This document shows positions 1 through 13,952 of a stretch of DNA of 64,000 nucleotides, piece by piece. The position numbers were made by a program, and so were the translations under genes. Source of the stretch: Pseudonocardia parietis (GTDB lineage: Bacteria; Actinomycetota; Actinomycetes; Mycobacteriales; Pseudonocardiaceae); the NCBI RefSeq assembly GCF_017876315.1, contig NZ_JAGINU010000001.1, positions 868,001-932,000 on the forward strand, given 5' to 3'. The notes under the pieces are model-generated. The model was not told the origin of the DNA and made no database searches. It saw only the letters and a program-made list of their open reading frames with translations. Positions within the stretch are counted from its first letter, which is position 1; each line of letters begins with the position of its first letter.

Positions 1-1383
1 CCGCCAACGACGGAACGCCGTCGCTCGGGCCAGCGCGTCGAGCAGAGCCTGTTCGCCGTGAGCCTGGCCGAGTGCGAGGAGCTCGCCGAGCTCGGTGCCC
101 AGGCGGGCCGATCCGGCTGCGACAGCACCGGTCAGGAACGCCTGCGCGGCGGGCCCGAGTGCGCAGAACGTCTTCTCGTCAGCGGTCTTCGGGCGGGCCG
201 CCCGAACCGGAGTCGTGGGGCGCGGCCCGCCGTAGTGGGCGTCGATCACCGACGCCTCGCCCGGCCCGACCAGGCGGTGCTCGGCCAACACCACCCCGGC
301 CCCGGCAACTGCGCCGACCCTGCCGCCGGGTGTGGCGGTGGACAGGATGGTGAGGCGGTCGGCGTGGGTGCGGACCTCGACCCGGGTGCCGATCGCGGTG
401 GTGGGGACCGAGTAGCGGGCCGACCCGAACCTCACGCAGGACAACCGGTCGACTTTGCGGATCACCGCCGGGCCGGTGATCCGAGGGCGCAGCGACGGGA
501 GCCCGCCCAAGACGTCGAGCTCGTGTTCGGCCAGCCGCTCAGCGGGGATCGCCGCGATCTCCGAGTGCGTCACCGCGTTGACCTCCGCGCACCACTGCTG
601 CGCTGCGGCGTTGGCCGCGGCCAGGTCGGGGCGTCCCGGCCCCCCGGTGTCCCCGGTGTCGAGGTCGACCAGGTCGCAGCCGATGATCAGGTCGGCTTTG
701 GCGTAGCCGACGAGGTTCTCCACGATGCCCTTGGACTCCGGATCGTTGCCGTGGCAGAAGTCCGGGCGGAACCGGTAGTGGCTGGCGAAGCGCACGTAGT
801 CCGGTGTCGGGACCACGAGGTCGGCGACCACGGCGGCCTTCAGACACCCCATCCGGTCGGCGAGCACGACCTTCGGGACCCCGCCGATGGTCTCGAAGCA
901 CTCGGCCAGCATGTTCAGGGTGGTCTCGGCGCGTTCGTCGACGGCGAAGCGGACGAACCGCACCCTCGACCAGGCCAGCACGGCGCAGAACACGTGCAGC
1001 CCGGCGATCACGCCCCAGTCGATGACCAGGTGCTCGCCCGGGGACCACACCGCCGGACGCCGCCCGCGGTGATGATCGCGGCGCCAGTCGGCCTTCGCTT
1101 GCGCGACGAGGCGGCGGAAGTTGCGCGCCGAGCCCTCGTAGCCCGCGGCGCGAGCATCGGGCAGCAGCCGCTTCGCCGAGATCCTGCCCTTGGTCTTCTC
1201 CACTCGCCCGGCGACCAGCTCGGCGACCGACTCATAGTTCCGGGAGCGTGGTTTGCGTTGCGGGACAACACCCCCCGCGTCATGACGCTCGATGACCCGA
1301 CGCACGGTCTTCGGTGTCGTGGCGCAGATCGCGGCCGCGCCGCGATAACTGCCGACATCCCGATAGGCCGAAATGATGTCCAT
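1..1383 (-). CDS. IS21-type transposase (IstA-like), 3' end beyond window
   Basis: 461 codons are open from an ATG at 1383 leftwards to the window edge with no stop, so the C-terminus lies outside. The N-terminus is a helix-turn-helix (MDIISAYRDVGSYRGAAAIC). It is followed by a DDE integrase core: VIDWGVIAG supplies the first Asp, VLADRMG the second and ESKGIVENLVGYAK the Glu. This order and spacing are those of IS21-family IstA, which cuts and joins transposon ends together with the IstB ATPase; IstB would lie further left, outside the window. A family of direct repeats sits just upstream of the start (1512-1576), as expected for an IS21 end. The reading frame is intact as far as visible. 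Confidence 0.85.
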   Translation of the reverse strand, partial: MDIISAYRDVGSYRGAAAICATTPKTVRRVIERHDAGGVVPQRKPRSRNYESVAELVAGRVEKTKGRISAKRLLPDARAAGYEGSARNFRRLVAQAKADWRRDHHRGRRPAVWSPGEHLVIDWGVIAGLHVFCAVLAWSRVRFVRFAVDERAETTLNMLAECFETIGGVPKVVLADRMGCLKAAVVADLVVPTPDYVRFASHYRFRPDFCHGNDPESKGIVENLVGYAKADLIIGCDLVDLDTGDTGGPGRPDLAAANAAAQQWCAEVNAVTHSEIAAIPAERLAEHELDVLGGLPSLRPRITGPAVIRKVDRLSCVRFGSARYSVPTTAIGTRVEVRTHADRLTILSTATPGGRVGAVAGAGVVLAEHRLVGPGEASVIDAHYGGPRPTTPVRAARPKTADEKTFCALGPAAQAFLTGAVAAGSARLGTELGELLALGQAHGEQALLDALARATAFRRWR

Positions 1384-1511
1384 CCGTTCCCTCGCAGACT
1401 TCAATGGGAGACCCCTGGGTGGTGCGGCGGCTGGCTTCGACAACCACCACCGTCACCGCCCAGGGCCTCAACCCGGCGTACGACACGACGAGGGACCGGG
1501 GACTTCTATCT

Positions 1512-1576
1512 GGCCACCAGCGGGGACCTCACAAGGCCACCCGCGGGGACCTGAACCTGGCCACCAGCGGGGACTT
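1512..1576. repeat. IS21-type terminal direct repeats
   Basis: Three copies of GGCCACCAGCGGGGACCT (one or two changes between copies) begin at 1512, 1535 and 1559, a spacing of 23-24 bp. A partial fourth copy starts near 1583. IS21 elements carry such multiple transposase-binding repeats near their ends, so the element probably ends shortly after this array. The exact terminus and target duplication are not evident. Confidence 0.6.
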
Positions 1577-1668
1577 TTTCATGGCCACGGACACTCGGCC
1601 GGCGGTTGTGCCGGCGACGGACCGAGGCACCATCATGATGGCAGTGCTGCCAGAAGAGCGGAGTTTGT

Positions 1669-2634
1669 GTGGACACCCGGGAGATATCAACGGAGGAACG
1701 CCTGGCACCGGGCGACCTCATCGCGACTCTTGCTGCCCAGACGCCGAACGTCGGGCTCAATCCGACGGAGTGGCCGGGGCTTACCCTCTACCGCTTCACC
1801 TCGACTTCGGCCCGGCAGTGGGACGATGTCGGTGCGCTCTCGATCTGCATGGTCGCGCAGGGGTGCAAAGTCGTCACGGTGGACGGCGTGCAGCACCGCT
1901 ACGACCCTTTTCACTACTTCGTGCTGCGGCGCCGGCTCCGTTTCGAGGTCGAGATCGTCTCAGCGAGCATCGAGAAGCCTTTCCTGTCTTTCGTGCTGCA
2001 GGTGGACCCGTCGATGGTCCGGCGGATCAGCGGCGACATGTTGGATCGGGCGGCCACCACGTTCCACCGCCCGCTGCCCGAGGACCAGCGCGACGCGTAC
2101 GTCTCACCGCTGGACCTCGACCTGCTCGGAGCCGCGTTGCGGTTCATCAAAGCCGTGGCCCACGGCTCGGATCGGCGGGTGCTGGCCCCGATCTACCTGC
2201 AGGAGATCGTCTACCGGGTGTTGCAGTCGCAGCAGTGCGACCGGTTGGTGGAGGCGGCCGCGCAGGACAGCGCCCGCAACCCGGTAGCTGACGTGATCCT
2301 CTTCGTCAGGGAGCGGATCGCCGAACCGCTCACGATCGCCGATCTGGCCGAGCACGTGAGCATGAGCCCCTCGACGTTCGCGCACCTGTTCCGCGACGTC
2401 ACCGGGATGTCGCCGTACCAGTTCGTGAAGCGGATGCGCCTCGACTACGCGCGGGGACTGCTGCTCGACGGCTCGCTTAACGCCAGCGAGGTGGCCAAGA
2501 GCGTGGGCTACTCGAGCCTGTCGGCCTTCATCACCGAGTTCAAGCGGCACTTCGGGGTGACGCCACGCGCCTACGCCGACGCCCAGCACGGCGCCGTGCC
2601 GTTCCGGGTCGACCGGGCGACCGCCCCCATCTGA
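1669..2634 (+). CDS. AraC-family transcriptional regulator with AraC_N-type domain
   Basis: 321 residues from a GTG preceded by GGAG at 1660-1663. The N-terminal two thirds resembles the cupin-like AraC_N domain. The C-terminal 100 residues hold two helix-turn-helices: LTIADLAEHVSMSPSTFAHL and NASEVAKSVGYSSLSAFITE, followed by the conserved GVTPRAY end. It is a predicted DNA-binding activator or repressor. It stands alone between the IS21 end and an empty 350-bp stretch, so its target is unclear; the leftward meta-pathway operon that ends at 2981 is convergent with it. A perfect 10-bp palindrome (CATCATGATG, 1631-1640) lies 29 bp before the start. Confidence 0.9.
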   Translation: MDTREISTEERLAPGDLIATLAAQTPNVGLNPTEWPGLTLYRFTSTSARQWDDVGALSICMVAQGCKVVTVDGVQHRYDPFHYFVLRRRLRFEVEIVSASIEKPFLSFVLQVDPSMVRRISGDMLDRAATTFHRPLPEDQRDAYVSPLDLDLLGAALRFIKAVAHGSDRRVLAPIYLQEIVYRVLQSQQCDRLVEAAAQDSARNPVADVILFVRERIAEPLTIADLAEHVSMSPSTFAHLFRDVTGMSPYQFVKRMRLDYARGLLLDGSLNASEVAKSVGYSSLSAFITEFKRHFGVTPRAYADAQHGAVPFRVDRATAPI

Positions 2635-2980
2635 CGGCTCGTCGGGCTGCCGGTCACGCCGGGGCCCGTGCCATGAAGATCCTCGAAGCCGTGCTCCGTC
2701 ACCATGCCTGTCAGGCGTGGAGCCTGAGGTCGGAATCGAACCGCCGTCCACAGGGATCACCGCGGTCTCGGTGGGGGCGGTCGACTACCTCTTGAAGGGC
2801 AGTGGCTGCGCTGAGCACGCGCACGCGCCCTCCCGGGCGGAGCAGAGCCTCGAACCTGGTCTGGGCAGCGGGTCAAGTACGAGCGGCGCGGGCTACCTCC
2901 TGGCGGCCGCCGAGCACGAACCACCGGGTGTCTGCTTCAGCGCGCAGCGTCGTCGTAGGTCATACAGGCCGGCTTGGGCG
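2635..2980. other. Intergenic stretch without a supported gene
   Basis: 346 bp between the AraC gene and the hydratase gene. A short hairpin-capable sequence (CAGGC-GTGGA-GCCTG, about 2712-2726) could be a terminator for the AraC gene but has no T-run. I see no coding region or RNA gene that can be defended. Confidence 0.5.
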
Positions 2981-3778
2981 CTAGGTTGACTCGTCGGTTG
3001 ACACGCGGATGGTGACTGCTCCGAGCCGGTCGAACTCGGCGCGGAAGACGTCGCCGGCAGCCAGCGGGACGGCGGCGTGCAGGGCACCGGTCATGACCAG
3101 GTGACCCGGTTCGAGGGCGATGCCGTGCTCACCGAGGACGTTGGCCAGCCAGGCGACGACGGCGACGGGGTCCCCGAGAGCGGCGGCACCGGCACCGGTG
3201 GCGATGAGCTCGCCGTTGCGGGTGAGCACCATGCCGGTCAGGCGGGTGTCGAACCCGTCGATCGGGACGGCGCGGCCCGAGGTGACCATCGCGCCGTTGG
3301 AGGCCAGGTCGGCGACGGTGTCGGCGAGCTTGATCCGCCAGTCGGCGATGCGGGAGTCGACGATCTCCATCGACGCCATCGCGCCGCTGATGGCCCGGCG
3401 GGCCCCGTCGAGGCTCACCCCGGGGCCCTGCAGCCGTTCGCCGAGCACGAAGACGATCTCGGCCTCCATCTTCGGGGAGATGAACCGATCGAGCGGGATG
3501 ACGTCCCCGTCGTCGTAGACGGTGGAGGCCAGAACGGGGCCGTAGTCAGGTGAGTCCACGCCGATCAGCTGCTGCATCGCCACCGAGGTCAGCCCGACCT
3601 TGTACCCGATGACGCGGTCGCCGTCGGCGAGCAGCAGGGGAACCAGCTCCCGCTGCACGGCGTAGCCGTCGGCCATCGTCAGGTCCGGCTCGGCATCGGT
3701 GAAGGCGGCGATCGGCTGCCGGGTGCGCCGGGCCTCGTACAGCGCCTTCGCCTTCATCCGGGCATCGGTCACGTGCAT
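2981..3778 (-). CDS. mhpD: 2-hydroxypenta-2,4-dienoate (2-keto-4-pentenoate) hydratase
   Basis: 265 residues, the usual length for the MhpD/HsaE/BphH hydratase branch of the fumarylacetoacetate-hydrolase-like superfamily. It adds water to 2-hydroxypenta-2,4-dienoate to give 4-hydroxy-2-oxovalerate, the substrate of the aldolase encoded next. PKMEAEIVFVLGERL carries the acidic metal ligands; IGYKVGLTS and the C-terminal GALHAAVPLAAGDVF are family hallmarks. The ATG is preceded by AGGAG. It is the last gene of a leftward operon, separated from the aldolase by 82 bp that contain three 12-bp repeats. Cytosolic. No frameshift or missing residue is seen. Confidence 0.93.
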   Translation of the reverse strand: MHVTDARMKAKALYEARRTRQPIAAFTDAEPDLTMADGYAVQRELVPLLLADGDRVIGYKVGLTSVAMQQLIGVDSPDYGPVLASTVYDDGDVIPLDRFISPKMEAEIVFVLGERLQGPGVSLDGARRAISGAMASMEIVDSRIADWRIKLADTVADLASNGAMVTSGRAVPIDGFDTRLTGMVLTRNGELIATGAGAAALGDPVAVVAWLANVLGEHGIALEPGHLVMTGALHAAVPLAAGDVFRAEFDRLGAVTIRVSTDEST

Positions 3779-3797
3779 GTGCGATGAGCTCCTGATC

Positions 3798-3833
3798 GTG
3801 TCGAGGGCCGTGCCGAGGGCCGTGTCGAGGGCT
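3798..3833. repeat. Three tandem 12-bp repeats
   Basis: GTGTCGAGGGCC is present three times head to tail (3798, 3810, 3822), with one change in each of the second and third copies. It fills much of the gap between the aldolase and hydratase genes. No function is evident. Confidence 0.7.
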
Positions 3834-3860
3834 GTGGCTGCACCCGGACGCCGGTGGGCG

Positions 3861-4910
3861 TCACGAGACGGCCGCGCCCGCCCGGTCCCGTTCGGCGGCG
3901 AGCCCGATGGCCACGTCGATGATCATGTCCTCCTGCCCGCCGACGTAGCCGAGCTCACCACAGCGACGGAGGATCTCGTGCGGCGGGACCTTGTACCGCT
4001 CCCCCGCCCGCTCCGCGTGCAGCAGGAACGACGAGTACACGCCTGCCCAGCCCTGCACGATCGCGTTGCGGTCCATCTTCGGCCAGCGGTGCAGGTACGG
4101 CCGGACGACGTCCTCGGCCGCGTCGAGCAGCGCCGACACGTCCAGCCCGGTCTCGATGCCGAGCCGGTCGAACACGGCTCCGAGCACCTCGGTCGGCGAG
4201 TTGCCCGACCCCGCTCCCAGCGCGCACAGCGACCCGTCGATGTACCGCACACCGGACTCGTAGGCGATCACCGAGTTCGCGACGCCGAGGCTGACGTTCT
4301 GGTGCCCGTGATAGCCGACCCAGGCCTCGTCGCCGACCTCGGCCACCAGCGCCTCGAACCGCGCCCGCGCCTCGTGCATCATCAACGCGCCCGCCGAGTC
4401 GGTCACGTACGGCGTCTGGCAGCCGGCGTCGACCATGATCCGGGCCTGCTTCGCCAGGTTCTCCGGCGAGGTCCGGTGCGCCATCATCAGGAAACCGACC
4501 GTCTCCATGCCCAGCTCCCGGGCCACCCCGAAGTGCTGCGGCGACACGTCGGCCTCGGTGCAGTGCGTCGCCACCCGCACCATCTCCGCGCCGGCGTCGT
4601 GGGCCCGGCGCAGGTCGTCGGCGGTGCCGATGCCGGGGACCAGCAGGACGGCGATCTTCGCCTGCCGGGCCTCCTCCCGCGCCGCCGCGATCAACGTCAT
4701 CTCGTCGGTCAGCGAGAACCCGTAGTTGAACGACGACCCGCCGACCCCGTCGCCGTGCGAGACCTCGACGACCTCCACCCCGGCCCGGTCCAGCGCCCGC
4801 ACGGTGTCCCGCACCTGCTGCTCGGTGAACTGGTGGGCCATCGCGTGGCTGCCGTCGCGCAGCGTCGTGTCGGTGATGCGGACGTCGTGCGTGATCTCCG
4901 GGCGGGTCAT
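3861..4910 (-). CDS. dmpG: 4-hydroxy-2-oxovalerate aldolase
   Basis: 349 residues from ATG at 4910. This is the DmpG/HsaF-type aldolase of the HMGL-like TIM-barrel family, which splits 4-hydroxy-2-oxovalerate into pyruvate and acetaldehyde. [12 protein letters not shown] near the N-terminus gives the catalytic Arg-Asp pair, and [11 protein letters not shown] the metal-binding His residues. The C-terminal part (about residues 290-349) matches the communication domain that channels acetaldehyde to the dehydrogenase. The start overlaps the acetaldehyde dehydrogenase stop in an ATGA, so translation is probably coupled, fitting the known aldolase-dehydrogenase complex. The frame stays open upstream, but homology and the overlap fix the start. 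Confidence 0.95.
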
Positions 4911-5821
4911 GCCGCTGCTCCCTGCTTCGCCTGTGCCATCAGCTCGCCCACCCGGGCGGCGGCCGCCGTCATGATGTCGAGGTTGCCGGCGTACTCCGGC
5001 AGGTAGTCGCCGTTGCCCTTGACCTCGAGGAAGATCGCGACACGGCCGTTGCCGCCCCACGCGTCCTGCGGGTCGTCGAACTGCGGCTCCGCCCGCAGCG
5101 TGTAGCCGGGCACGTACTCCTGCACGTCGGCGACCATCTCGTGGATCGACCGCGTGATCGCCGCCTGGTCGGCATCGGCCCCGATCGCGCAGAACACCGT
5201 GTCCCGCATGATCATCGGCGGCTCGACGGGGTTCAGGATGATGATCGCCTTGCCCCTGGCCGCGCCGCCGACCTCCTCGACGGCACGCGCCGTGGTCTCG
5301 GTGAACTCGTCGATGTTCGCCCTGGTCCCGGGCCCCGCACCGCGCGAGGCCACCGACGCGACGATCTCGGCGTAGGGCACCGGGGTCACCCGCGACACCG
5401 CGTGGACCATCGGGATCGTCGCCTGCCCGCCGCACGTGATCATCGAGACGTTCGGGGCGGCGATGTGCTGCGCCCCGTTCACCGGGGGCGACACCATCGG
5501 CCCCAGATGCGCCGGCGTGAGGTCGACGGCCTGGATGCCGGCCTCCGCGTAGCGCGGCGCGTTCGCGATGTGCGCCTTCGCCGATGTCGCCTCGAACACG
5601 ATCTGCGGCAGCCGGTCCTGGCGCAGCAGCCAGTCGACGCCCTCGGCGGACGCGGTGACGCCGAGCGTGCGAGCGCGCGCGAGGCCGTCGGACTCCACCA
5701 CCCCGACCATGTACTCGACCTCGATCGCCGCGCTGCGCTGCAGCTTTGCCAGCAGGTCGGTACCGATGTTGCCCGGTCCGACGATCGCGGCCGTCACCTT
5801 CCGCACGATTCCGTTGGCCAT
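4907..5821 (-). CDS. dmpF: Acetaldehyde dehydrogenase (acylating)
   Basis: 304 residues, standard length for the DmpF/MhpF/HsaG family. It oxidises acetaldehyde to acetyl-CoA with NAD and CoA, completing the lower meta-cleavage route. [13 protein letters not shown] is the nucleotide-binding loop and [12 protein letters not shown] holds the catalytic cysteine. First gene of the leftward operon dehydrogenase-aldolase-hydratase. Only 38 bp separate its ATG from the ATG of the divergent IclR gene, so promoter and operator elements must be packed into or overlap the two coding starts. No extradiol dioxygenase is in this operon; ring cleavage must come from another module. Confidence 0.95.
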
Positions 5822-5859
5822 GGATGGACTCTGGCAGCGCGTGGCGCGACGATGAAGGA

Positions 5860-6636
5860 ATGCGTTCCACTCACCGAGACGATGGGCCGAACACGGTCAT
5901 TGGCCGCGCGTTCACCCTGCTCACGGCCTTTCGGGCCGGAGATCAGGAGCTGACGCTCGCGGAGCTGTGCCGGCGAACCGGCATCAACAAACCCACAGCG
6001 CATCGGTTGCTGCGCGAGCTCGCCCAGTGGAACGTCATCGAGCAGACCCCGGGCGGCATCCGGCTCGGCATGGCGCTGTTCGAGCTCGGGCAGCTCGCTC
6101 CGCGCCAGCGCGGGCTTCGTGAGGCGGCAGCGCCCTTCCTCGCCGATCTCTTCGAAGCCACCCGCGAGACCGTGCACTTGGCCGTCCCGGAAGACATCGA
6201 GGTGGTCTATGTTCAGAAACTCGAAGGACGCGGCAGCCCGACGGTCGGCTCCCGCATCGGCGGCCGTATGCCGGCCTACTGCACCGGTGTCGGTAAGGCG
6301 ATGCTCGCGTACGCCCCTCCGGGGCGGCTTGCCGCCGTGGTCGAGGCCGGTCTGCGCCGGCGAACACCCCGGACCGTGATCGCCCCCGGCCTGCTCGAGC
6401 GAGAACTCGCCAGGATCCGCGAGCTGGGCGTTGCCGTGGAGCACGAGGAATCCACCCTTGGCATCGCGTGCGTGGCAGCTCCAGTCCTCGACGCTGGCGG
6501 CATCGCCGTCGCTGGGGTGTCCATCACCGGGCGAGCGCACCTCGACACCGCACGCCTCGCCCCCGCCGTTCGCACCGCCGCACTCGGCATATCGCGTGCA
6601 CTCGGCAACGGCTACTTGTCGAGCCCGCACCCGTAG
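5860..6636 (+). CDS. IclR-family regulator of the meta-pathway operon
   Basis: 258 residues from the ATG at 5860, preceded by AAGGA; an upstream in-frame extension would run into the divergent gene and adds no family sequence. The N-terminal winged helix is [20 protein letters not shown]. The C-terminal effector domain shows the usual IclR features: [16 protein letters not shown], and [19 protein letters not shown] near the end. Divergent placement 38 bp from the acetaldehyde dehydrogenase gene makes it the likely local regulator of the hydratase/aldolase/dehydrogenase operon, probably responding to a pathway intermediate (inference). Confidence 0.92.
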
Positions 6637-6864
6637 CGCGCCACTGAGGCTGCCGGTCGCCCACCCAGCGCTGACGGAGATGAGGCTCCGGCCTAGTACG
6701 GGTGGATCATCGGTGGCCGGCAGGGCGCTGTCGGGTCACCACCGCGATCGGGGCCAAGACCTGGCCAGCCATATCGCCATCGCCCCGAGTAGTCCGTCTC
6801 GCCGCGTTCTCAGGCACGCCGTGCAGCCCGGGCAGCAGGACACGTAGGGGTGCTTTCGGCCTAG
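6637..6864. other. Intergenic stretch without a supported gene
   Basis: Spacer between the IclR gene and the transposase remnant. Reading frames on both strands show no recognisable family and no good ribosome-binding site. It probably belongs to the degraded end of the following element. Confidence 0.4.
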
Positions 6865-7314
6865 TTGCTGCAACGGCCGTTCGGCGGTCTCTGCGATGAT
6901 CACGGTCGTGGTGGTGGATCGCGGCTCACCCTCGTTGCCACCACCTGCTTCCCGCTCGCTGTGCGGCTGCATGACCGGGTGGCGGGCGTTTGGCTGGCGG
7001 AACCACGGGTGCGGATGCGCCGGTACGTGTCCGGGTTGGTCGCGGGGCTGGAGCGCAAGAACGGCTGGACACTGGCCGAACACGTTGGTGAGGGCTCGCC
7101 GGACGGGATGCAGCGGCTTCTGCGCTGGGGGGACTGAGACGTCGATGGGCTGCGCGACGACGTGCGCGATCACGTCGTGGACCAGCTCGGAGATCCGGGC
7201 GCGGTGTTGATCCTGGATGACACCGGGTTCGTGAAGAAGGGCGCCCGAAAGGCCAGCAGTTGGCATGTCGCCGCTCCCAGACCCGGGCGGGCCGTTCACA
7301 CACCACCACTTTGA
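6865..7314 (+). pseudogene. IS701-type transposase remnant with in-frame stop
   Basis: The frame reads an N-terminal region typical of IS701-family DDE transposases: RMRRYVSGLVAGLERKNGWT, AEHVGEGSPDGMQRLL, then after a TGA at 7135-7137 HVVDQLGDPGAVLILDDTGF and VKKG. The family normally has Trp where the TGA stands (TGG to TGA), so this is a nonsense mutation. Similarity stops soon after the first catalytic Asp (LDDTG), and the remaining two thirds of the protein is missing. It is therefore dead both by a stop and by truncation. The neighbouring 7315-7630 stretch shows no gene. Confidence 0.75.
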
Positions 7315-7630
7315 TCCACGCGCCGGGACGTCGCAGGTCCTGGCGGGAGAGGCCGAGTCATGGATTGCCCACCAGTCACCTGCACCGGTAACGGACGTCC
7401 CGATCCGCCCCCGCCGCCGCAACCACCGAGGCCGGGCGTGACCCCCGGGCTGATCTAGCGCACACCCACCGACCAGCGACGACATCGGACGCGTGCCCTT
7501 CGGTCCGGTGCCGCGGCCCGACGGCGGCGGCGCTGCGAGTCGACCAGCGCCGCCGCCGACAACGACACCGACGACATGTGATTGATCAGGAATCGGAGCA
7601 GCCGCTCCCAGGCGTACTCGGGGGTACGCA

Positions 7631-8098
7631 ATGCCAGCACAGGTACCACGGCCGCGCCCGCTGCGACCGGCCCAGACCGGGGATGCAGACCCGGTCGCCG
7701 GTCCCCGACGAACACGACCAGAGCGCACCGCGCCGGCTGCGCTGCCGGATCTGGATGTGCGGTTGCACGCGCCGCTGGCCGAGGTCGTGATCGTGCGGGT
7801 CGCGGGCACGCTCGACGAGCACAGCACCGCGTTGCTGGCCCAACGGGTCGGTCCACAGTTCGAACGCGCCGCCCATGTTGTGCTCGACCTCAGCGAGGTG
7901 AACCTGCGACGGTGCGGGGTGCGGCTCCTGCTCGATCTGCACCGCCACGCGATCACCCGCGGCGCGCGCCTGCACATCGCCGACGATGAGTGCGGCGCGG
8001 CGGCTGCCTTACTGTGCGCGGCCGGGCTGGATCGGGTGCTCGACCTGGTCTCGTCCGTGGACGCGCTCGTCGCGCTGATCGCGCCGCGGCCCTGCTGA
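7631..8098 (+). CDS. STAS-domain protein (anti-sigma factor antagonist-like), atypical
   Basis: 155 residues from an ATG at 7631. About 45 basic, low-complexity residues precede a STAS domain (from LDVRLHAPLAEVVIVRVAGT onwards). STAS anti-anti-sigma factors bind anti-sigma kinases and are switched by phosphorylation of a Ser/Thr after the hallmark DLS motif. Here the hallmark region reads VVLDLSEVNLRRCGVRLLL: the usual Asp-Ser-Ser is replaced by Arg-Arg-Cys, so the canonical phosphorylation site is absent. No anti-sigma partner is adjacent. The flanks are degraded mobile DNA, so the true start is uncertain and the gene may be a captured fragment. Confidence 0.65.
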   Translation: MPAQVPRPRPLRPAQTGDADPVAGPRRTRPERTAPAALPDLDVRLHAPLAEVVIVRVAGTLDEHSTALLAQRVGPQFERAAHVVLDLSEVNLRRCGVRLLLDLHRHAITRGARLHIADDECGAAAALLCAAGLDRVLDLVSSVDALVALIAPRPC

Positions 8099-8389
8099 CC
8101 GACAGGCGCAGCGCCGCGGCAGCTTGAACTCCGTCCCCGATTTGATCAGCAGGATCGAGTGGCGGTCAAAGAGACAGGTCACCAGGAACGACGCCTGTCG
8201 ACGATCCCCAATCGGAGTACCCCCGCTTCCCCGCGGGCAAGGCCGTTGGTCGTGCCGTTCCTCGGATGTCGAGAAGCGACCGTCTGTCGACGATCATGAC
8301 CCGCACCGAGGACCCGCAGGTGGCGAGTGTCGGTAACTCGCGTCGCGAATCAACGACGACAAACCTCACCGCGGCGCTATTGTCGACCG
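8099..8389. other. Intergenic region, possible left flank of the transposon
   Basis: 291 bp with no gene. CTGTCGACGATC occurs twice (8195-8206 and 8284-8295) and TGTCGAGAAGCG begins at 8259. These start with TGTCGA, as does the reverse complement of the last bases of the right-end array near 13510, but I could not find the 16-bp right-end repeat here. The left boundary of the element is unproven. Confidence 0.35.
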
Positions 8390-8995
8390 ATGTTGATCGG
8401 GTACGCGCGGGTGTCGACCGCGGAGCAGAACCCCGCGCACCAGGTCGACGCGCTGCACCGCGCCGGCGTCGCGGCCGACGACGTGCACCTCGACCACGCC
8501 TCGGGGGCGAAGGCGTCGCGCCCGCAGCTGGACCTGGTGCTGCGGCTGCTCCGGGCCGGGGACTCCCTGGTGATCACACGGCTGGACCGGCTGGGCCGCT
8601 CGGTGCTGCACCTGGTCACCCTCGGCGCGCAGCTGCGCGAGCGCGGGATCGGGCTGCGCGTCATCGAGCAGGGCATCGACACCTCGACCGCGGAGGGCCG
8701 GGCGATGTTCGGGATGCTGTCGGTGCTCGCCGAGCTGCAGCGCGAGCTGATCGTGGCCAACACCCGCGACGGACTGGCCGCCGCCCGCGCCCGCGGGCGC
8801 AACGGTGGGCGCCGCCCGAAGCTCACTGCGGCGCAGGCCGCGCACGCCCAGCAGCTCTACGACGGCGGCGAGCACACCGTCGCGCAGATCGCGGCGCTGC
8901 TGGGAGTAGCGCGCACGACGGTGTACGGGCACCTCAACCGCGCCGCGCCGCAGCCTGGGGCCGGGCCGGTGGCCCGGATAGGCTCACCGTCGTGA
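8390..8995 (+). CDS. Serine recombinase (resolvase/invertase family)
   Basis: 201 residues from ATG at 8390. The N-terminal catalytic domain starts MLIGYARVSTAEQN, with the nucleophilic Ser in YARVS, and continues with DSLVITRLDRLGRS and the AMFGMLSVLAELQRELI helix. A C-terminal helix-turn-helix (HTVAQIAALLGVARTTVYGH) binds the res site. Length and layout are those of transposon resolvases (TnpR/TniR), which resolve cointegrates. It overlaps the next gene by GTGA. It lies 0.8 kb upstream of the TniA/TniB-like pair, as tniR accompanies tniABQ in Tn5053/Tn402-type transposons, although gene order differs here. Confidence 0.9.
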   Translation: MLIGYARVSTAEQNPAHQVDALHRAGVAADDVHLDHASGAKASRPQLDLVLRLLRAGDSLVITRLDRLGRSVLHLVTLGAQLRERGIGLRVIEQGIDTSTAEGRAMFGMLSVLAELQRELIVANTRDGLAAARARGRNGGRRPKLTAAQAAHAQQLYDGGEHTVAQIAALLGVARTTVYGHLNRAAPQPGAGPVARIGSPS

Positions 8996-9321
8996 GCGCG
9001 ACCTACGCCTACGACGAGCGCCCTGCCGGCGGGCACCCGCTGGCGCCCGGGGCGGCGCCGGCGGCGATCCGGGCCGCGCTGCTGCCCACCGACCAGGACG
9101 CCTTCGACGCCGCCTACGCCGCGGCGCTGGCCGCGTCGCGGGAGAGTCTCGACCTGGGCGAGTTGTTCCAGACGCTGGAGCACTGGCGGCGGCTGGCGCT
9201 GCTGCAGCGCGACCCGGAGAACTTCGCGCGGATGGTGCGGCGGGTGGCCGAGACGCTGTCCGGGGAGCCGGTGCCCGACGGTGAGCCGTTCGAGCTCACC
9301 CGGGCCAAGGCCGGTCTGTAG
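8992..9321 (+). CDS. DUF6247-like small protein, possible antitoxin
   Basis: 109 residues from a GTG overlapping the resolvase stop. The core (AAIRAALLPTDQDAFDAAYA, then LFQTLEHWRRLALL and a C-terminal helix) resembles the actinobacterial DUF6247 family, which is often followed by a small RelE-like gene. The next gene begins directly after its stop (TAG then GTG), so the two are co-translated. The arrangement suggests a toxin-antitoxin pair with this protein as antitoxin; that role is inferred from gene pairing only, and no DNA-binding motif is evident. Confidence 0.6.
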   Translation: MSATYAYDERPAGGHPLAPGAAPAAIRAALLPTDQDAFDAAYAAALAASRESLDLGELFQTLEHWRRLALLQRDPENFARMVRRVAETLSGEPVPDGEPFELTRAKAGL

Positions 9322-9576
9322 GTGTACCGCGTCGTCACCGACGACCACATCCAGCACCAGCTCGACGCGCTGCCCGTCGCGGCGCTGGCCGCGTTCGCCG
9401 AGCTGCGGGTGCTGCTGGAGCTCGACCCGTGGGCCGGCGGCCCGGTCAACCCGGCCAACCCGCACGGCCCGGTGCGGACGATGGTGTTCGGTCCCGGCCA
9501 CGAGGGCGTTGCGGCCTACCTCATCCTGGAATCTGAGCGCAGGGTCGATCTCGTGCAGATCGCCTGGCTGGCCTGA
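9322..9576 (+). CDS. Small protein, possible RelE/ParE-like toxin
   Basis: 84 residues from a GTG immediately after the preceding stop codon. It starts MYRVVTDDHIQHQLDALP and ends in a beta-rich part (VRTMVFGPGHEGVAAYLI, then RRVDLVQIAWLA), a short alpha-then-beta layout reminiscent of the RelE/ParE fold. No catalytic residues can be assigned with confidence. Context as second gene of a DUF6247-like pair inside a transposon supports an addiction-module idea; it remains an inference. Confidence 0.5.
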   Translation: MYRVVTDDHIQHQLDALPVAALAAFAELRVLLELDPWAGGPVNPANPHGPVRTMVFGPGHEGVAAYLILESERRVDLVQIAWLA

Positions 9577-9760
9577 CGTGGGTCCGGAACGGACTTGGCG
9601 ACCCTCGGCGGGTCGACGGGCCTGTGCACCGCGAGAGGTGAATCATCTGGGCCGTGACGATCCGGGCGGATCGGCTGGTCGTTCGTCTACGGCCGCGGCG
9701 GCGCACACCGAGCAGCGCCGCCGCACCGACGTGCCCGCGTTGCCGGGAAGCTGACTTCCG

Positions 9761-11353
9761 GTGACTCGCCTTGATCCGCAGTTGCGCGCCGCCGCGGTGG
9801 ATCGGCTGGTCGCCGCGCGGGATGCCGGGACGTTGACCAGCGCGGAGGTGCAGCGCACCGCGGACGGGCTCGGCGTCGATCAGCGCACGGTGTGGCGGTG
9901 GCTCGCACACGCGGCGACCGGGCGCCCGGCGCGGCAGCGCTACCAGCTCACCGAGCAGGACATCGCCGCGTTCTACGACTGGCGAGGCAACGTCGCGGCG
10001 GCACGGCGGGCGCTGGTCAAGGCGGGTGCGGTCGGATTGCCGTCGCTGGCGACCTTGCAGCGGGCGTTCGCCGAGCAGTTGACACCGGCCGCGCGGGCCG
10101 CCGCGGTCGACGGCGTGGAGGGCCGGCGCCGGCACGAGGTGTACCTGCGGTGGGCGCCGAACCGGCGCAACGCGTTGTGGGAGGGCGACCACACCGAGCT
10201 GCCGGTGCTGGTGCTCGCCCCGCGGGCGCAGCGGCCGCGGAAGCCGTGGGCGACGCTGTTCATCGACGGCTTCTCACGGCTGATCATGGCGTGGGCGTTG
10301 TCGCTGTACCCGACCTCGGCGGTCGTGCTGGCCGCGCTACGCCAGGGCATCGTCGTCGACGCGGCGCGAGGCCCGTTCGGTGGAGTGCCGGAGGCGCTGC
10401 GCCCGGACCGCGGGCTGGAGTTCATGGCGACCGCGATGGCGCGCTCGTGCGCGGCCCTGGGGGTGGAGCTGTTGCCGACCCCGCCCTACACCCCGCACCG
10501 CAAGGGCAAGATCGAGCGAGTCAACCGGACCCTGGACCAGGAGTTCCTGTCCGGGTTGCCGTTCTACACTCACGGCCCGCGCGGCGCGGACGGGCGGTTG
10601 TTCGGCCCGGACGCCGACCCGATGAGCCTGGAGTTGTTCAGCCACCATTTCGCGGACTGGGTCGCCGACTACAACCTGCGGCGGGTGCACAGCGAGCTGG
10701 CCGGGCAGACCCCGCTCGGGCGCTGGCGGGAGGACGCGACCCCGCTGCGTGAGGTGCCCGCCGAGCAGCTGCGGTGGATGTTGATGGCCGACATCGAGCG
10801 GACGATCAACAAGGACGGGGTGCACTTCCAGCGGGTGCGGTTCATCGCCCCGGAGCTCAACGGGCTGGTCGGCGACCGGGTCCAGGTCCGCTACACCCCG
10901 CACGACCTGCGGCAGATCGAGATCTTCCGCGGCGACACCTGGTTGTGCACCGCCTACCCGCAGGACGAGCTGACCGCCGAGCAGCGCACCGCGGTGCTGG
11001 CCCGCCGCCACGCCGACGCCACCGAGCTGGGCCGACGGCAACGCCGGGCCAGCCGGCGGGCACGCGCCCGGCTGGCCCCGCTGACCGCACCCGGCCCGGG
11101 CGAGGACACCACGGTGATCACCGCCGAGCAGGACCGCCAGGAACGGCGCGAGCGTCGCCGTGACGACGACGGGCGCGAGATGCGCCGGCTGGGCCGTACC
11201 GACCTGCTGGGGCTGCACCGCGACTTCGAGTACTGGAACCCGCCGCGTGACCCGAAGCCGGCGGCAGCACCCGAGGCCGGGCCGGCGACCGGCGCAGACG
11301 ACAAGCCCGGCGAGGCCGGGGCCGAGGGCACGGTGAAGGACGGGAAGGGATAG
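9761..11353 (+). CDS. TniA/TnsB-like DDE transposase with Mu-C-type domain
   Basis: 530 residues from GTG at 9761. An N-terminal winged-helix/HTH region (GLGVDQRTVWRWLAH) is followed by an rve-type integrase core: Asp143 in WEGDHTEL, Asp216 in LRPDRGLEF, Glu252 in HRKGKIERVNRTL. A beta-barrel Mu transposase C-terminal-like domain covers roughly residues 340-400 (VRFIAPELNGLVGDRVQVRY), then a basic, Pro/Ala-rich tail that could contact the ATPase. This is the organisation of TnsB/TniA/MuA, which bind multiple end repeats and carry out strand transfer. It is followed within 2 bp by an AAA ATPase gene, as in tniAB and tnsBC pairs. All catalytic residues are present, so it may be active. Confidence 0.88.
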   Translation: MTRLDPQLRAAAVDRLVAARDAGTLTSAEVQRTADGLGVDQRTVWRWLAHAATGRPARQRYQLTEQDIAAFYDWRGNVAAARRALVKAGAVGLPSLATLQRAFAEQLTPAARAAAVDGVEGRRRHEVYLRWAPNRRNALWEGDHTELPVLVLAPRAQRPRKPWATLFIDGFSRLIMAWALSLYPTSAVVLAALRQGIVVDAARGPFGGVPEALRPDRGLEFMATAMARSCAALGVELLPTPPYTPHRKGKIERVNRTLDQEFLSGLPFYTHGPRGADGRLFGPDADPMSLELFSHHFADWVADYNLRRVHSELAGQTPLGRWREDATPLREVPAEQLRWMLMADIERTINKDGVHFQRVRFIAPELNGLVGDRVQVRYTPHDLRQIEIFRGDTWLCTAYPQDELTAEQRTAVLARRHADATELGRRQRRASRRARARLAPLTAPGPGEDTTVITAEQDRQERRERRRDDDGREMRRLGRTDLLGLHRDFEYWNPPRDPKPAAAPEAGPATGADDKPGEAGAEGTVKDGKG

Positions 11354-11355
11354 GG

Positions 11356-12129
11356 ATGGTGCGGCATTTCCTGGATGTCGAGGGCGCGGCCACGCTGCCC
11401 ACCGACTCGTTGCTGATGGTCGAACGGGCGGTGACCGACCTGCTCACCGTGCAGGCGATGGGCACGGTGCACGGCCCGGCCGGGCTGGGCAAGACCTACG
11501 CGGTCGAGCAGGCCCTGACCCGCGCGGTGGCCGACGGGCGGGCCGGGCGGGCGCCGTGCTGGGTGAAGTTCCCCAGCCGTCCCACGATGCGCCTGGTCGC
11601 GGCCGACCTGCTCGCCGAACTCACGAGGGTGCCGACCGGGCGCGGGAACCGGTTCGTGCTCACCGAGCAGCTGGTCGAGGAACTCGCCCCACCGCCGGGC
11701 GGCGGCGGGCACGTGGTGGTGGTCGACGAGGCGCAGAGCCTCAACACCGAGTGCATCGAGTACCTGCGCTACCTGCACGACCACCGGGCGACGCGGTTCG
11801 CGTTGCTGCTGGTCGGCGGGGACGGCACCTGGAAGGTGCTCTCGCGGGAACCGATGCTGCGCTCGCGGATCTACCGCCGGGTCAGCGTGGAACCGCTCAC
11901 CCCGGCCGAGGTGTGCGCGCTGATCCCGACCTATCACCCGCTGTATGAGGGCGTCGACGCCGAGCTGCTGCTGTTGATCGATGACCACTTCGCGCACGGC
12001 AACCTGCGGCACTGGGCGGCGTTCACCCGGACCGCGGCCGCGCTGTGCGCGGCCACCGGCGCCGACCGGGTCGATGAGACCGTGGCCCGCAACGCGTTCA
12101 CCCTGCACGGCGGCGGCGTGAGCGCGTGA
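11356..12129 (+). CDS. TniB/TnsC-like AAA ATPase
   Basis: 257 residues from ATG at 11356, with AAGGGA just upstream. Walker A is GPAGLGKT (residues 40-47), Walker B VVVVDEAQ (120-127), followed by a sensor-1-like LLLVGGDGTW and an Arg-rich SRIYRRVSVEPL that fits an Arg finger region. TniB/TnsC/IstB-type ATPases select the target and activate the DDE transposase. It sits between the transposase and an unknown third protein with which it overlaps (GTGA at 12126-12129), so all three are probably made together. Confidence 0.85.
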   Translation: MVRHFLDVEGAATLPTDSLLMVERAVTDLLTVQAMGTVHGPAGLGKTYAVEQALTRAVADGRAGRAPCWVKFPSRPTMRLVAADLLAELTRVPTGRGNRFVLTEQLVEELAPPPGGGGHVVVVDEAQSLNTECIEYLRYLHDHRATRFALLLVGGDGTWKVLSREPMLRSRIYRRVSVEPLTPAEVCALIPTYHPLYEGVDAELLLLIDDHFAHGNLRHWAAFTRTAAALCAATGADRVDETVARNAFTLHGGGVSA

Positions 12130-13403
12130 CCGGCTCCGCCCCGGCGCTGGGCGGCCGCGTGGGCGCGACGCCGGCGGCGTCGGCCGGGGCGGGGCTGCGG
12201 TGGGTGCACGATCCCGATGACGACCACGCCTGCATGCGGCAGCTGACCGCGTTGCACGATCTGCCCGGCGGGCGGGCGGTGTGTCATCCCACGCCCGGCG
12301 CGACGTGGCCGGTGCTGATCCGGGACCTGCTCGAGGCCCTGGGCAAGCCGCGCGACGCGCTCGCCCGGGAACGGCGCCTGCGCGATGGCGGGCGCCTGGT
12401 GCAGGTCTGGATGTGCGCCGAGCGCGTCGAGCACTTGGTGGTGCTGCGTGCGCACCTGCTGCGGCCGGCGCTGCTCGACCGGTCCGCCGAGCTGGCCGCC
12501 GCGACCGGCACGACGATCTGGCTGGTCTGGCACCACAGCGACCCACCCGGCCCGGCCGGGATCGGTGAGGTGTGGTCCTGGCCCGCGGCGGTCGACACCC
12601 TCCGGCGTGGCCGCGTCCGACCGTTGTCGTCGGAGCAGGTCCGGCTGCGGTCGGTGGACGCGATCCACCGCGACGCGGTCGCCGAGGCTCGGCGCGAGGC
12701 CCGGCTGTGGCGGGTTGCCCCGCCCCGGCAGCGCCGCTACACCCAGCCCGGTTGCGAGCTCGGGGCGTTGCTGCAGCGGCTGAGCATTGACGCCGCCACC
12801 TGGGCCGAGCTGGACCTGCGCCTGGACGCCGCGCGCGCCGGGTTCGCCATCGAGGGGCTCACCCTCGTGCTGCCCGACGCGCAACATCTCCGGGACCTGA
12901 TCGGTCCACGCCTACCCGCACCGGTCGTGACCCGGCTGCGCCGGATCGCGTGCCCGACCAGCGCCGTCGCGCTGCTGCTCGCGTGGGCCACCGACGCCCG
13001 ACCCGGCCGCATCTCAGGGTGCATGCAGCGCAGCGTCAGCCCCGACGGCGGACACGTGAACCTGTTGCCGGGCCGCTACCGCATCCCCGGATCGGTCCAG
13101 GTCATCCTGCGGGCCGCCCTGATCGAGCACCGCATGCGCGGGCTCCCGACCTACACGTTCCTCGCGCGACCCGACGACACGTCGTACTGCGCCCAGGCCA
13201 TGGCCAACCTCATCACCCGCGTCGCCGGCCGCGCCGAGGTGCTCCTGCCTCCCTCGTTCGAGCGCAACGACTTCGGCCCCGAACGGCCCTTCGTCGCCGA
13301 ACTGGTCAACACCGGACGGGTCCGACTCGAAGGAGCCCCGCCCCGACCGCGACTCCAGCCCGACCACGACTCGCTACCTCGTCGCCGCCGCTGGAGACCC
13401 TGA
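12126..13403 (+). CDS. Unknown third protein of the TniA/TniB-like transposon
   Basis: 425 residues from a GTG overlapping the ATPase stop. I do not recognise the family. The position is that of TniQ/TnsD target-selection proteins, but I see no TniQ start motif and no zinc ribbon. Visible features: an N-terminal part around WVHDPDDDHACMRQLTALHD and LPGGRAVCHPTPGATWPVL, a middle region with VHLVVLRAHLL-like and TIWLVWHH strands, a linker rich in Arg, and a C-terminal half with GALLQRLSIDAATWAEL and PTSAVALLLAWATDARPGRI. The tail (from about 395) is Pro/Arg-rich. It ends 39 bp before the right-end repeats, so it is the last gene of the element and a candidate target-site or host-factor adaptor (inference). 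Confidence 0.7.
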   Translation: MTGSAPALGGRVGATPAASAGAGLRWVHDPDDDHACMRQLTALHDLPGGRAVCHPTPGATWPVLIRDLLEALGKPRDALARERRLRDGGRLVQVWMCAERVEHLVVLRAHLLRPALLDRSAELAAATGTTIWLVWHHSDPPGPAGIGEVWSWPAAVDTLRRGRVRPLSSEQVRLRSVDAIHRDAVAEARREARLWRVAPPRQRRYTQPGCELGALLQRLSIDAATWAELDLRLDAARAGFAIEGLTLVLPDAQHLRDLIGPRLPAPVVTRLRRIACPTSAVALLLAWATDARPGRISGCMQRSVSPDGGHVNLLPGRYRIPGSVQVILRAALIEHRMRGLPTYTFLARPDDTSYCAQAMANLITRVAGRAEVLLPPSFERNDFGPERPFVAELVNTGRVRLEGAPPRPRLQPDHDSLPRRRRWRP

Positions 13404-13441
13404 GCCTGCCTGCTCCACGCCGCTCCCCGTCGTGCCGAACG

Positions 13442-13504
13442 CTGACATCTCATGCGGCAACGTACTGACATCTCATGCGGTTTCCCACTGACACATCCAT
13501 GCGG
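13442..13504. repeat. Right-end array of a Tn5053/Tn7-like transposon
   Basis: CTGACATCTCATGCGG occurs at 13442-13457 and 13465-13480, and a variant (CTGACACATCCATGCGG) at 13488-13504. The starts are exactly 23 bp apart. Such regularly spaced repeats are the binding sites of TnsB/TniA-type transposases. The coding sequence of a truncated aldolase gene resumes at once (about 13510), so the array marks the element boundary. Confidence 0.7.
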
Positions 13505-13514
13505 CTCGACAGGC

Positions 13515-13952
13515 ATGTTCGGCGAGCTGTTCGCCACGCAGTTGGCCGTCCGCGGCGTGCTCGGGCTGGTCATCGACGCCGGCGTGCGCGACGTCGCCGA
13601 CCTGACCGCGCTGGGCTTCCCGGCCTGGTCCCGCGCGGTCTCCGCGCAGGGCACGGTCAAGGCGACGCCCGGCTCGGTCAACGTGCCGGTCGTGGTCGCC
13701 GGCGCCTGCGTGCGCCCGGGCGACGTGGTCGTCGCCGACGACGACGGCGTGCTGATCGTCCCCCGCGAGGAGGCGCCCGCGGTGGCCGCTGCGTCGCTGA
13801 CCCGCGAGGCCGGCGAGCAGGAGAAGCGGGAGAGGTTCCAGGCCGGCGTGCTCGGCCTGGACGTCTACGGCATGCGCCCGACCCTCGAGCGTCTCGGCGT
13901 CACCTACGTCGACGAACCGGCCGACGACGCCGTTCCCGCCCCCTCCGCCTGA
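13515..13952 (+). pseudogene. N-terminally truncated RraA/LigK-type 4-hydroxy-2-oxoadipate aldolase
   Basis: The 145 residues from an in-frame ATG at 13515 match the C-terminal part of the RraA-like/LigK aldolase family: [28 protein letters not shown] (Arg and Asp of the active site), [20 protein letters not shown] and a long helical tail. LigK-type enzymes are about 220-230 residues and cleave 4-carboxy-4-hydroxy-2-oxoadipate to pyruvate and oxaloacetate. About 90 N-terminal residues are missing and are replaced by transposon end repeats, which even provide an alternative start at 13452. Loss of the N-terminal half of the fold makes activity unlikely. It heads the rightward Rieske/LigAB operon, whose last step it would have served. 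Confidence 0.8.

Follow-up and report, generated by a model that had tools for sequence, protein, structure and literature searches.

A putative TniQ-independent Tn7/Mu-type transposon in Pseudonocardia parietis with a probable chimeric target-selection protein

A 64,000-nucleotide stretch of the Pseudonocardia parietis genome (RefSeq GCF_017876315.1, contig NZ_JAGINU010000001.1, positions 868,001 to 932,000; hereafter the window) contains the transposition genes of an element that is probably a TniQ-independent, heteromeric transposon of the Tn7/Mu type, in which a chimeric protein, here called C, acts as adapter and target selector. We place the probability of this reading at about 60%. A broader proposition, which we regard as evenly balanced, is that an actinobacterial Tn7-like lineage without TniQ aims by means of a protein in which a dead MuB-type ATPase is fused to a dead tyrosine recombinase and which acts by itself or together with a helix-turn-helix (HTH) partner; one branch would insert at the base following the stop codon of nrdJ and another in the transfer region of conjugative plasmids. 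C is predicted from its sequence to select the target, and its nearest known counterpart is, on our best reading, TnsF of Tn6022. The central features of the window are as follows.

8390–8995, forward strand: R, serine resolvase (Pfam Resolvase 3.6e-41, HTH_7; start from the gene finder)
9761–11353, forward strand: A, DDE transposase of the TnsB/MuA type, 530 aa (Pfam Mu-transpos_C 4.7e-16, rve 2e-10)
11356–12129, forward strand: B, AAA+ ATPase of the MuB/TnsC type (Pfam AAA_22 7.4e-14)
12126–13403, forward strand: C, third protein, 425 aa, overlapping B by GTGA; putative pseudo-AAA+ domain and truncated tyrosine-recombinase-like domain
13442–13511, forward strand: right end, three sites in a 23-bp register with terminal CGACA (repeat search)

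The gene block described in the first-pass annotation, with a resolvase, a small coupled gene pair, a DDE transposase, an AAA ATPase and the 425-residue C joined to the ATPase by the GTGA overlap, was borne out by gene calls and Pfam, as were the catalytic residues of A (Asp143, Asp216, and Glu252, set in GDH, RPDRG, and GKIER). The best match of A in PHROGs is the transposase family phrog_310 (6e-67) and in PDB TnsB (7svw, 2.8e-19). B carries the Walker A motif GPAGLGKT and the Walker B motif VVVVDEAQ, matches phrog_296 (2.8e-22), and has MuB (8xvb, 0.0022) as its sole PDB match at E ≤ 0.01. The adjacent operon genes A and B thus show the Tn7-like pairing of a TnsB-type DDE transposase with a TnsC-type ATPase. 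The element resembles phage Mu in that the best PHROG families of A and B are Mu-type transposase and transposition protein and that B has its only PDB match in MuB, but differs by having C and a resolvase, by the best PDB match of A being TnsB, and by showing no phage structural gene among the 25 mapped genes of the element (16 scanned against Pfam or NCBIfam, nine by eye).

C lies where tniQ would be expected, after the tniB equivalent. No TniQ match was obtained for C in Pfam, NCBIfam or PHROGs, nor for any of 12 C-family members scanned against Pfam, and no CxxC pair was seen by eye, in line with the first-pass annotation, which had reported neither a TniQ motif nor a zinc ribbon. A search with PF06527 detected no TniQ anywhere in the P. 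parietis genome, which is one of the 19 genomes without a match among 21 carrier genomes searched; the two others, G057 (66 bits) and G138 (23.5 bits, below the cut-off), have their matches on a different contig from the A-B-C element and the module contig, respectively. C itself gave no Pfam or NCBIfam match at E ≤ 1, one PHROGs row at 0.2 and a single row (E 9.4) in a PDB profile search. The position of the gene, and the fact that extreme divergence can escape sequence searches, would fit a C that is a TniQ/TnsD protein diverged beyond recognition by sequence and fold. A predicted structure of C had been proposed as a check, and no clear TniQ/TnsD match appeared: the fold is nearest to MuB/ORC-type AAA+ proteins and weakly like tyrosine recombinases, and the 50 rows shown hold AAA+ proteins and tyrosine recombinases with no TniQ among them. 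We consider a disguised TniQ highly improbable, and the different target-selection design suggested in the first-pass annotation plausible.

The structure of C was modelled by AlphaFold2 with 11 sequences (pLDDT 78.5, pTM 0.78). In Foldseek searches against PDB, rank 1 was an ORC chain (E 0.0089, probability 0.80), and many ORC/RFC chains were matched; the MuB filaments 8xvb (E 0.013) and 8xvc (E 0.027) both had probability 1.00 and a TM to target of 0.40. Two matches to the tyrosine recombinase XerA (5hxy) had probabilities of 0.72 and 0.84, with E values of 0.17 and 0.18 and a TM to target of 0.32–0.34. Against a viral fold library the best E was 0.018, RFC-type AAA+ proteins predominating with a few integrases and none below 0.001. 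One of 12 C proteins reached AAA_22 in Pfam (0.001), and in a profile comparison C matched B (all C proteins 0.0012, second-family branch 0.0055, other subsets 0.089–0.26) in the Walker B register, VVLRAH of C lying on VVVDEAQ of B. The motif GxxGxGK[T/S] was not seen in C. We are fairly sure that the N-terminal part of C is a MuB-like pseudo-AAA+ domain.

The C-terminal half (residues 173–425) modelled alone (pLDDT 74.0, pTM 0.67) gave weak matches to an integron integrase twice and to XerA in rows 1–3 (E 0.35–0.41, probability 0.23–0.41), followed by nuclear receptors at similar E and probability <0.1. For profile comparisons, 30 integrase loci of the P. parietis genome were narrowed to the 11 whose catalytic boxes were found by a motif. 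A profile of 21 C proteins matched these integrases at E 9e-5 (probability 59), as compared with 0.2 for A and 0.29 for resolvases. Among subsets of C, values were 8.8e-5 (Pseudonocardia), 1.7e-4 (D-bearing), 0.0021 (second-family branch) and 0.24 (L052/L067/L068/L122). In six C proteins of the D-bearing branch, HDLRG stands at or just before the C-terminus in four and HDLCG in one, while L039 has neither; HDLRG was aligned on the HxxR box of the integrases. Weak fold and moderate profile scores are thus the basis for reading the second half of C as recombinase-like. It is likely a truncated tyrosine-recombinase-like domain without the catalytic Tyr, a status that the window protein has by family only. 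Stand-alone proteins (frames of 375–435 aa) that match only the C-terminal part of C were found at L123:7111, L124:7609, L125:7123, L126:7289, and L127:7414, in four genomes of a single genus. In L125 and L127 the N-terminus looks by eye like the HTH start of A, and these proteins are possibly a domesticated A-C chimera.

The likeness to tyrosine recombinases in the profiles could also be explained if C descended from a recombinase and assisted in resolving cointegrates, or if it conferred immunity, and tyrosine resolvases do occur in Tn7-like elements according to the available part of PMC8649781. The region where the catalytic Tyr would be expected is missing from C, however, and a serine resolvase is already present in the window clade. 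Moreover, C is retained in nrdJ modules that start with the nuclease-like gene X, beside which no R-like gene appears in the maps (maps not queried with R). We judge a role of this kind, other than in targeting, to be improbable.

A single-sequence search with C gave matches in 20 of 199 relatives, fragments included, and a profile search in 17 of 397 genomes of the order, stand-alone proteins included. The gene order A-B-C recurs in Pseudonocardia and beyond, and A and C distances are correlated (r 0.864 over 19 pairs selected because they contain both genes; none of 2000 permutations reached this value). Failure of C to be kept with the A-B pair elsewhere, named in the first-pass annotation as a refuting result, did not occur: C is conserved with A and B in other genomes, though nine A-B pairs, with 30–37% identity to A, lack C in the maps (L137, L138, two in L139, L140, L142, L143, L146, and L147), L140 being located in the P. 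parietis genome itself. C is therefore not a constant companion of A-type transposases. Identity to A does not divide C-bearing from C-less modules, since the C-bearing L131 is only 35% identical to A. In a second family (f16), modules have the order X-A-B-C-D, where X is TnsA-like and D is an HTH protein. A PDDEXK_1 match was obtained for one of five X proteins scanned from nrdJ-type relatives, and a PD-(D/E)XK motif is visible by eye in eight of 12 aligned. A nuclease is thus not foreign to the group as a whole, and the absence of TnsA, rightly stated for the window element in the first-pass annotation, is a feature of the window clade, since the second-family relatives carry the PD-(D/E)XK-like gene before A. 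In L136, L225, L226, and L227, X shows no PD-(D/E)XK-like motif by eye yet the modules lie near nrdJ. D stands after C in part of the modules, its HTH being above the Pfam cut-off in one of three D proteins and below it in two, and fusions were read for B-C in L132 and for C-D in L136. In viral contigs, 22 stretches fit a C pattern and none was confirmed.

The complete transposon extends over 22,248 bp (G000:C1:859264-881511), with its right 13,511 bp inside the window. Its left end was located through the other half of an interrupted rraA-like gene: a PF03737 search of the genome gave four places, two of which are the halves of a single gene, with model positions 3–77 at G000:C1:859063-859278 and 70–152 at G000:C1:881509-881757. 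The halves outside the transposon join in frame as T-D-G-M-F-G-E-L (by eye), and the 6-bp target duplication GGCATG stands directly before the left end and directly after the right end. Where the first half meets the transposon stands TGTGGAGCGACGGTCGAACGACAGTG, the left-end type of related elements; a left-end search by likeness to the right end did not pick up this left end. The border features inside the window are the following.

13512–13517, forward strand: target-site duplication GGCATG (other copy G000:C1:859258-859263)
13512–13952, forward strand: interrupted rraA-like gene, 3' part, outside the element (PF03737, 2.9e-24 for this part alone)

The limits of 8390–13512 given in the first-pass annotation were correct to one base on the right (13511), whereas on the left the element already begins 8.7 kb ahead of the window. 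A block starting at 8390 is ruled out by this left border, and window positions 1–8389 are thus also part of the transposon. The repeats that had been noted with 23-bp spacing were recovered: CTGACATCTCATGCGG is exact at 13442 and 13465, with a degenerate third copy at 13488, and the end terminates in CGACA at 13511. With up to three mismatches the window holds three matches (0.67 expected; one of 100 shuffles reached three), and with up to two mismatches only 13442 and 13465 are found in the whole 8.1-Mb genome. The ends are of the TG...CA type, and 14 positions of the outermost 26 bp are identical between left and right; the inverted ends of the Tn5053/Tn402 family measure about 25 bp. From A to C the window element is 92% identical to L040 except for the first residues of A; the start of A (window 9761–9830), the DNA before A and the end repeats diverge strongly, as if the ends and the putative end-binding part of A had been swapped together.

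Ten right ends were found in Pseudonocardia, nine with flanking DNA (L049 stops at a contig border). Six of the nine lie 106–211 bp before a relaxase gene (L040 106 bp, L043 127, L044 210, L045 133, L048 211, and L047 141–147, the last counted by hand; relaxase starts set by the gene finder), all in one orientation, with the C/D-side end pointing at the start of the relaxase gene. The relaxases were identified as TrwC by Pfam in three cases and by similarity in the remainder. The motif CCTATGCAT occurs in the six flanks at +70, +71, +174, +78, +181, and +107. L043 and L044 are near-alike elements with the same right end, standing before relaxases that share 38% identity. In L042 the relaxase is 3.7 kb away. 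Since D is absent from four of the six pre-relaxase elements, either A, B, and C suffice for this preference or B achieves it through AT content. Both ends were found for seven Pseudonocardia elements, and four duplications were seen: GGCATG in the window, GCCTCC in L040, CCATCC in L044, and ACGCG in L039, three of the four being 6 bp long. A second element of the same kind in the P. parietis genome (12.8 kb, G000:C1:1350399-1363171; L161, L039) has D, the ACGCG duplication, an RraA-type gene directly inside its left end and 72% DNA identity to the window over part of A and B. On contig 2 of G027 (L040, L156), a single plasmid carries two elements of the group in line; one has its right end truncated by the left-end type of another, and the outer ends share the duplication GCCTCC.

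In the second family, a local C-branch profile found C in 16 of 112 genomes, and in 14 of these 16 an end array starts with the base that directly follows the stop codon of nrdJ. Sequence after the stop was extracted in 13 genomes, and by eye the array begins immediately behind TGA in all of them; the fourteenth is G491, where nrdJ reads as broken. Pfam places nrdJ with class II ribonucleotide reductases in the two cases tested, and the others were assigned by similarity. The modules are convergent with nrdJ at distances from 161 bp (L134) to 14 kb (L233), and L221, L231, and L134 are the only ones in which D is the immediate neighbour of the array. The exceptions are G489 and G504, the latter with a fragment, both having an empty nrdJ end; G467 has a second module copy at another location. 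As a control, 30 nrdJ loci were fetched (93 genomes with a match) and 29 displayed by pattern. The array was present in seven of eight C-positive genomes; of 21 genomes not listed as C-positive, 14 had no array and seven (G218, G452, G293, G398, G375, G432, and G162) had array-like sequence after the nrdJ stop (by eye), perhaps remnants of lost elements.

These data suggest the following course of events. A would make a cointegrate, which R would resolve at a res site before its gene; as a resolvase is present and a TnsA-like nuclease absent, cointegrate transposition is expected in the window clade, and it has been inferred for other Tn7-like branches (PMC8649781, part available). C would occupy the role of TniQ, its pseudo-AAA+ domain docking on the filament of B, as would be possible for a dead subunit sharing that fold, while its Tyr-less recombinase-derived domain would bind and bend target DNA. 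Encoded after C in related elements, D would add specificity and so make these elements home to the stop codon of nrdJ. In the Pseudonocardia branch, where R replaces the nuclease X, insertion would mostly occur in the region before plasmid relaxase genes, and the window copy would be a rarer landing within a chromosomal gene.

The main competing explanation is that C merely regulates the B filament as a dead ATPase subunit, while the target is chosen by D at nrdJ and by the AT-rich preference of the MuB-like B before relaxases. MuB prefers AT-rich DNA, and the 200 bp outside the right end falls in the lowest 1.5% of GC windows (DNA fetched) in five of the six pre-relaxase cases; the MuB-like fold of the N-terminal half of C and the presence of the HTH protein D in nrdJ elements agree with such a division of labour. 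On the other hand, GC content is high at the rraA site (0.755, above 85% of windows) and not extreme at L040, the sixth relaxase site (12.6%), AT preference leaves the single fixed orientation before relaxases unexplained, and C has retained a second, recombinase-like domain. We regard this explanation as rather unlikely, though more credible than the two alternatives discussed above. Several observations weigh against C as selector. Its fold likeness is weak, with none of 716 Foldseek rows below E 0.001 and TM at most ~0.4 to MuB and ~0.3 to XerA; the window branch of C alone shows no profile likeness (integrases E 0.22, B 0.26), and an earlier profile run with only five integrases gave 0.076. 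The GC-poor regions before relaxases might be favoured by B alone, other targets were used by the window copy (rraA) and by L039 (an istB-like gene, by reading), and no duplication was seen in three of the seven elements with both ends (L043, L045, and L047). At nrdJ, the roles that C and D would have in target choice are not separated, and other genes stand between module and end array in 11 of 14 cases, so that module and end are there only presumed to form one element; the far ends of elements at nrdJ did not turn up in the stretches searched.

Among known systems, Tn7 (TnsABCDE) resembles the nrdJ branch in having a PD-(D/E)XK-like gene ahead of the transposase gene and in inserting, with fixed orientation, where a conserved gene has its 3' end. 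In contrast to Tn7, TnsD/TniQ is absent, the array follows the nrdJ stop directly instead of lying downstream of glmS, and the window clade has no nuclease; some branches of Tn7-like transposons also lack TnsA. The TG...CA ends, several end sites (23-bp register here, about 22 bp typically) and a short target duplication are Tn7-like in general. Tn5053/Tn402 (TniA, TniB, TniQ, and TniR) likewise combine A- and B-type proteins with a serine resolvase, have no TnsA and insert in plasmids near a recombination-related site. Tn5053 targets res sites, whereas the window group targets pre-relaxase regions or others, has C instead of TniQ and makes 6-bp rather than 5-bp duplications in three of four cases. 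Transposons of the Tn6022 type resemble the present group in combining a transposase and an ATPase with an inactivated tyrosine recombinase, TnsF, as selector of a chromosomal site; TnsF works with TniQ at comM (PMC10293859, part available). According to the same part of that source, TnsF differs from C in having N-terminal zinc fingers, in needing TniQ and in its comM target. C, set beside TnsF by description, has a pseudo-AAA+ domain in place of the zinc fingers, no TniQ at its side and other targets.

No description of the A-B-C group was found in the literature searched (titles and abstract openings, with subscription journals mostly outside the coverage). TniQ/TnsD is called ubiquitous in the Tn7 branch in the available part of PMC10293859, whose search profiles include AAA_22, so that A-B-C loci may sit unremarked in its data. 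Given tnsD in 73–97% of transposons per clade (PMC8649781, part available), elements without a recognised selector have already been counted. If C does select targets, insertion at an exact base without TniQ would mean that target choice can rest on an ATPase filament without the TniQ hub, and C would be a second, independent inactivated recombinase turned selector, making the evolutionary route testable. The group would also offer a compact insertion system guided by DNA sequence, with a natural harmless site at the nrdJ end.

The transposition genes form one end of the catabolic transposon, which is complete at 22 kb and whose host is a soil actinobacterium. The remaining features inside the window are listed below.

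1–8389, no strand assigned: cargo, right-hand portion (borders and gene map; families for four genes, regulators and insertion sequence by reading)
8265–8389, forward strand: putative res region of R (dyads such as TGTCG...CGACA)
8992–9321, forward strand: DUF6247 protein, first of the small gene pair (PF19760, 4.2e-28)
9322–9576, forward strand: small partner of the DUF6247 gene (no Pfam family found)

The cargo is characterized by monooxygenase and meta-cleavage genes. The former encode two Phenol_Hydrox subunits, TmoB and a ferredoxin-reductase-type protein. Window positions 1–8389 encode a 2-oxopent-4-enoate hydratase-like protein, which stays under the cut-off of its best NCBIfam model, a 4-hydroxy-2-oxovalerate aldolase and an acetaldehyde dehydrogenase, which both exceed theirs, as well as IclR- and AraC-like regulators, a STAS protein and, at the left window border, remains of an IS21-like gene pair (named by reading). 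Between the regulator and STAS genes, window 6896–7450 reads as remains of a further transposase gene. DNA upstream of R matches L041 (90%) and L039 (82%) from window 8265/8267 onward, and this region may contain the res site of R. The DUF6247 gene and its small partner, which look like a putative two-gene addiction-type module, accompany R in several elements, and a further DUF6247-type pair lies beyond the relaxase in L063 (15745–16417).

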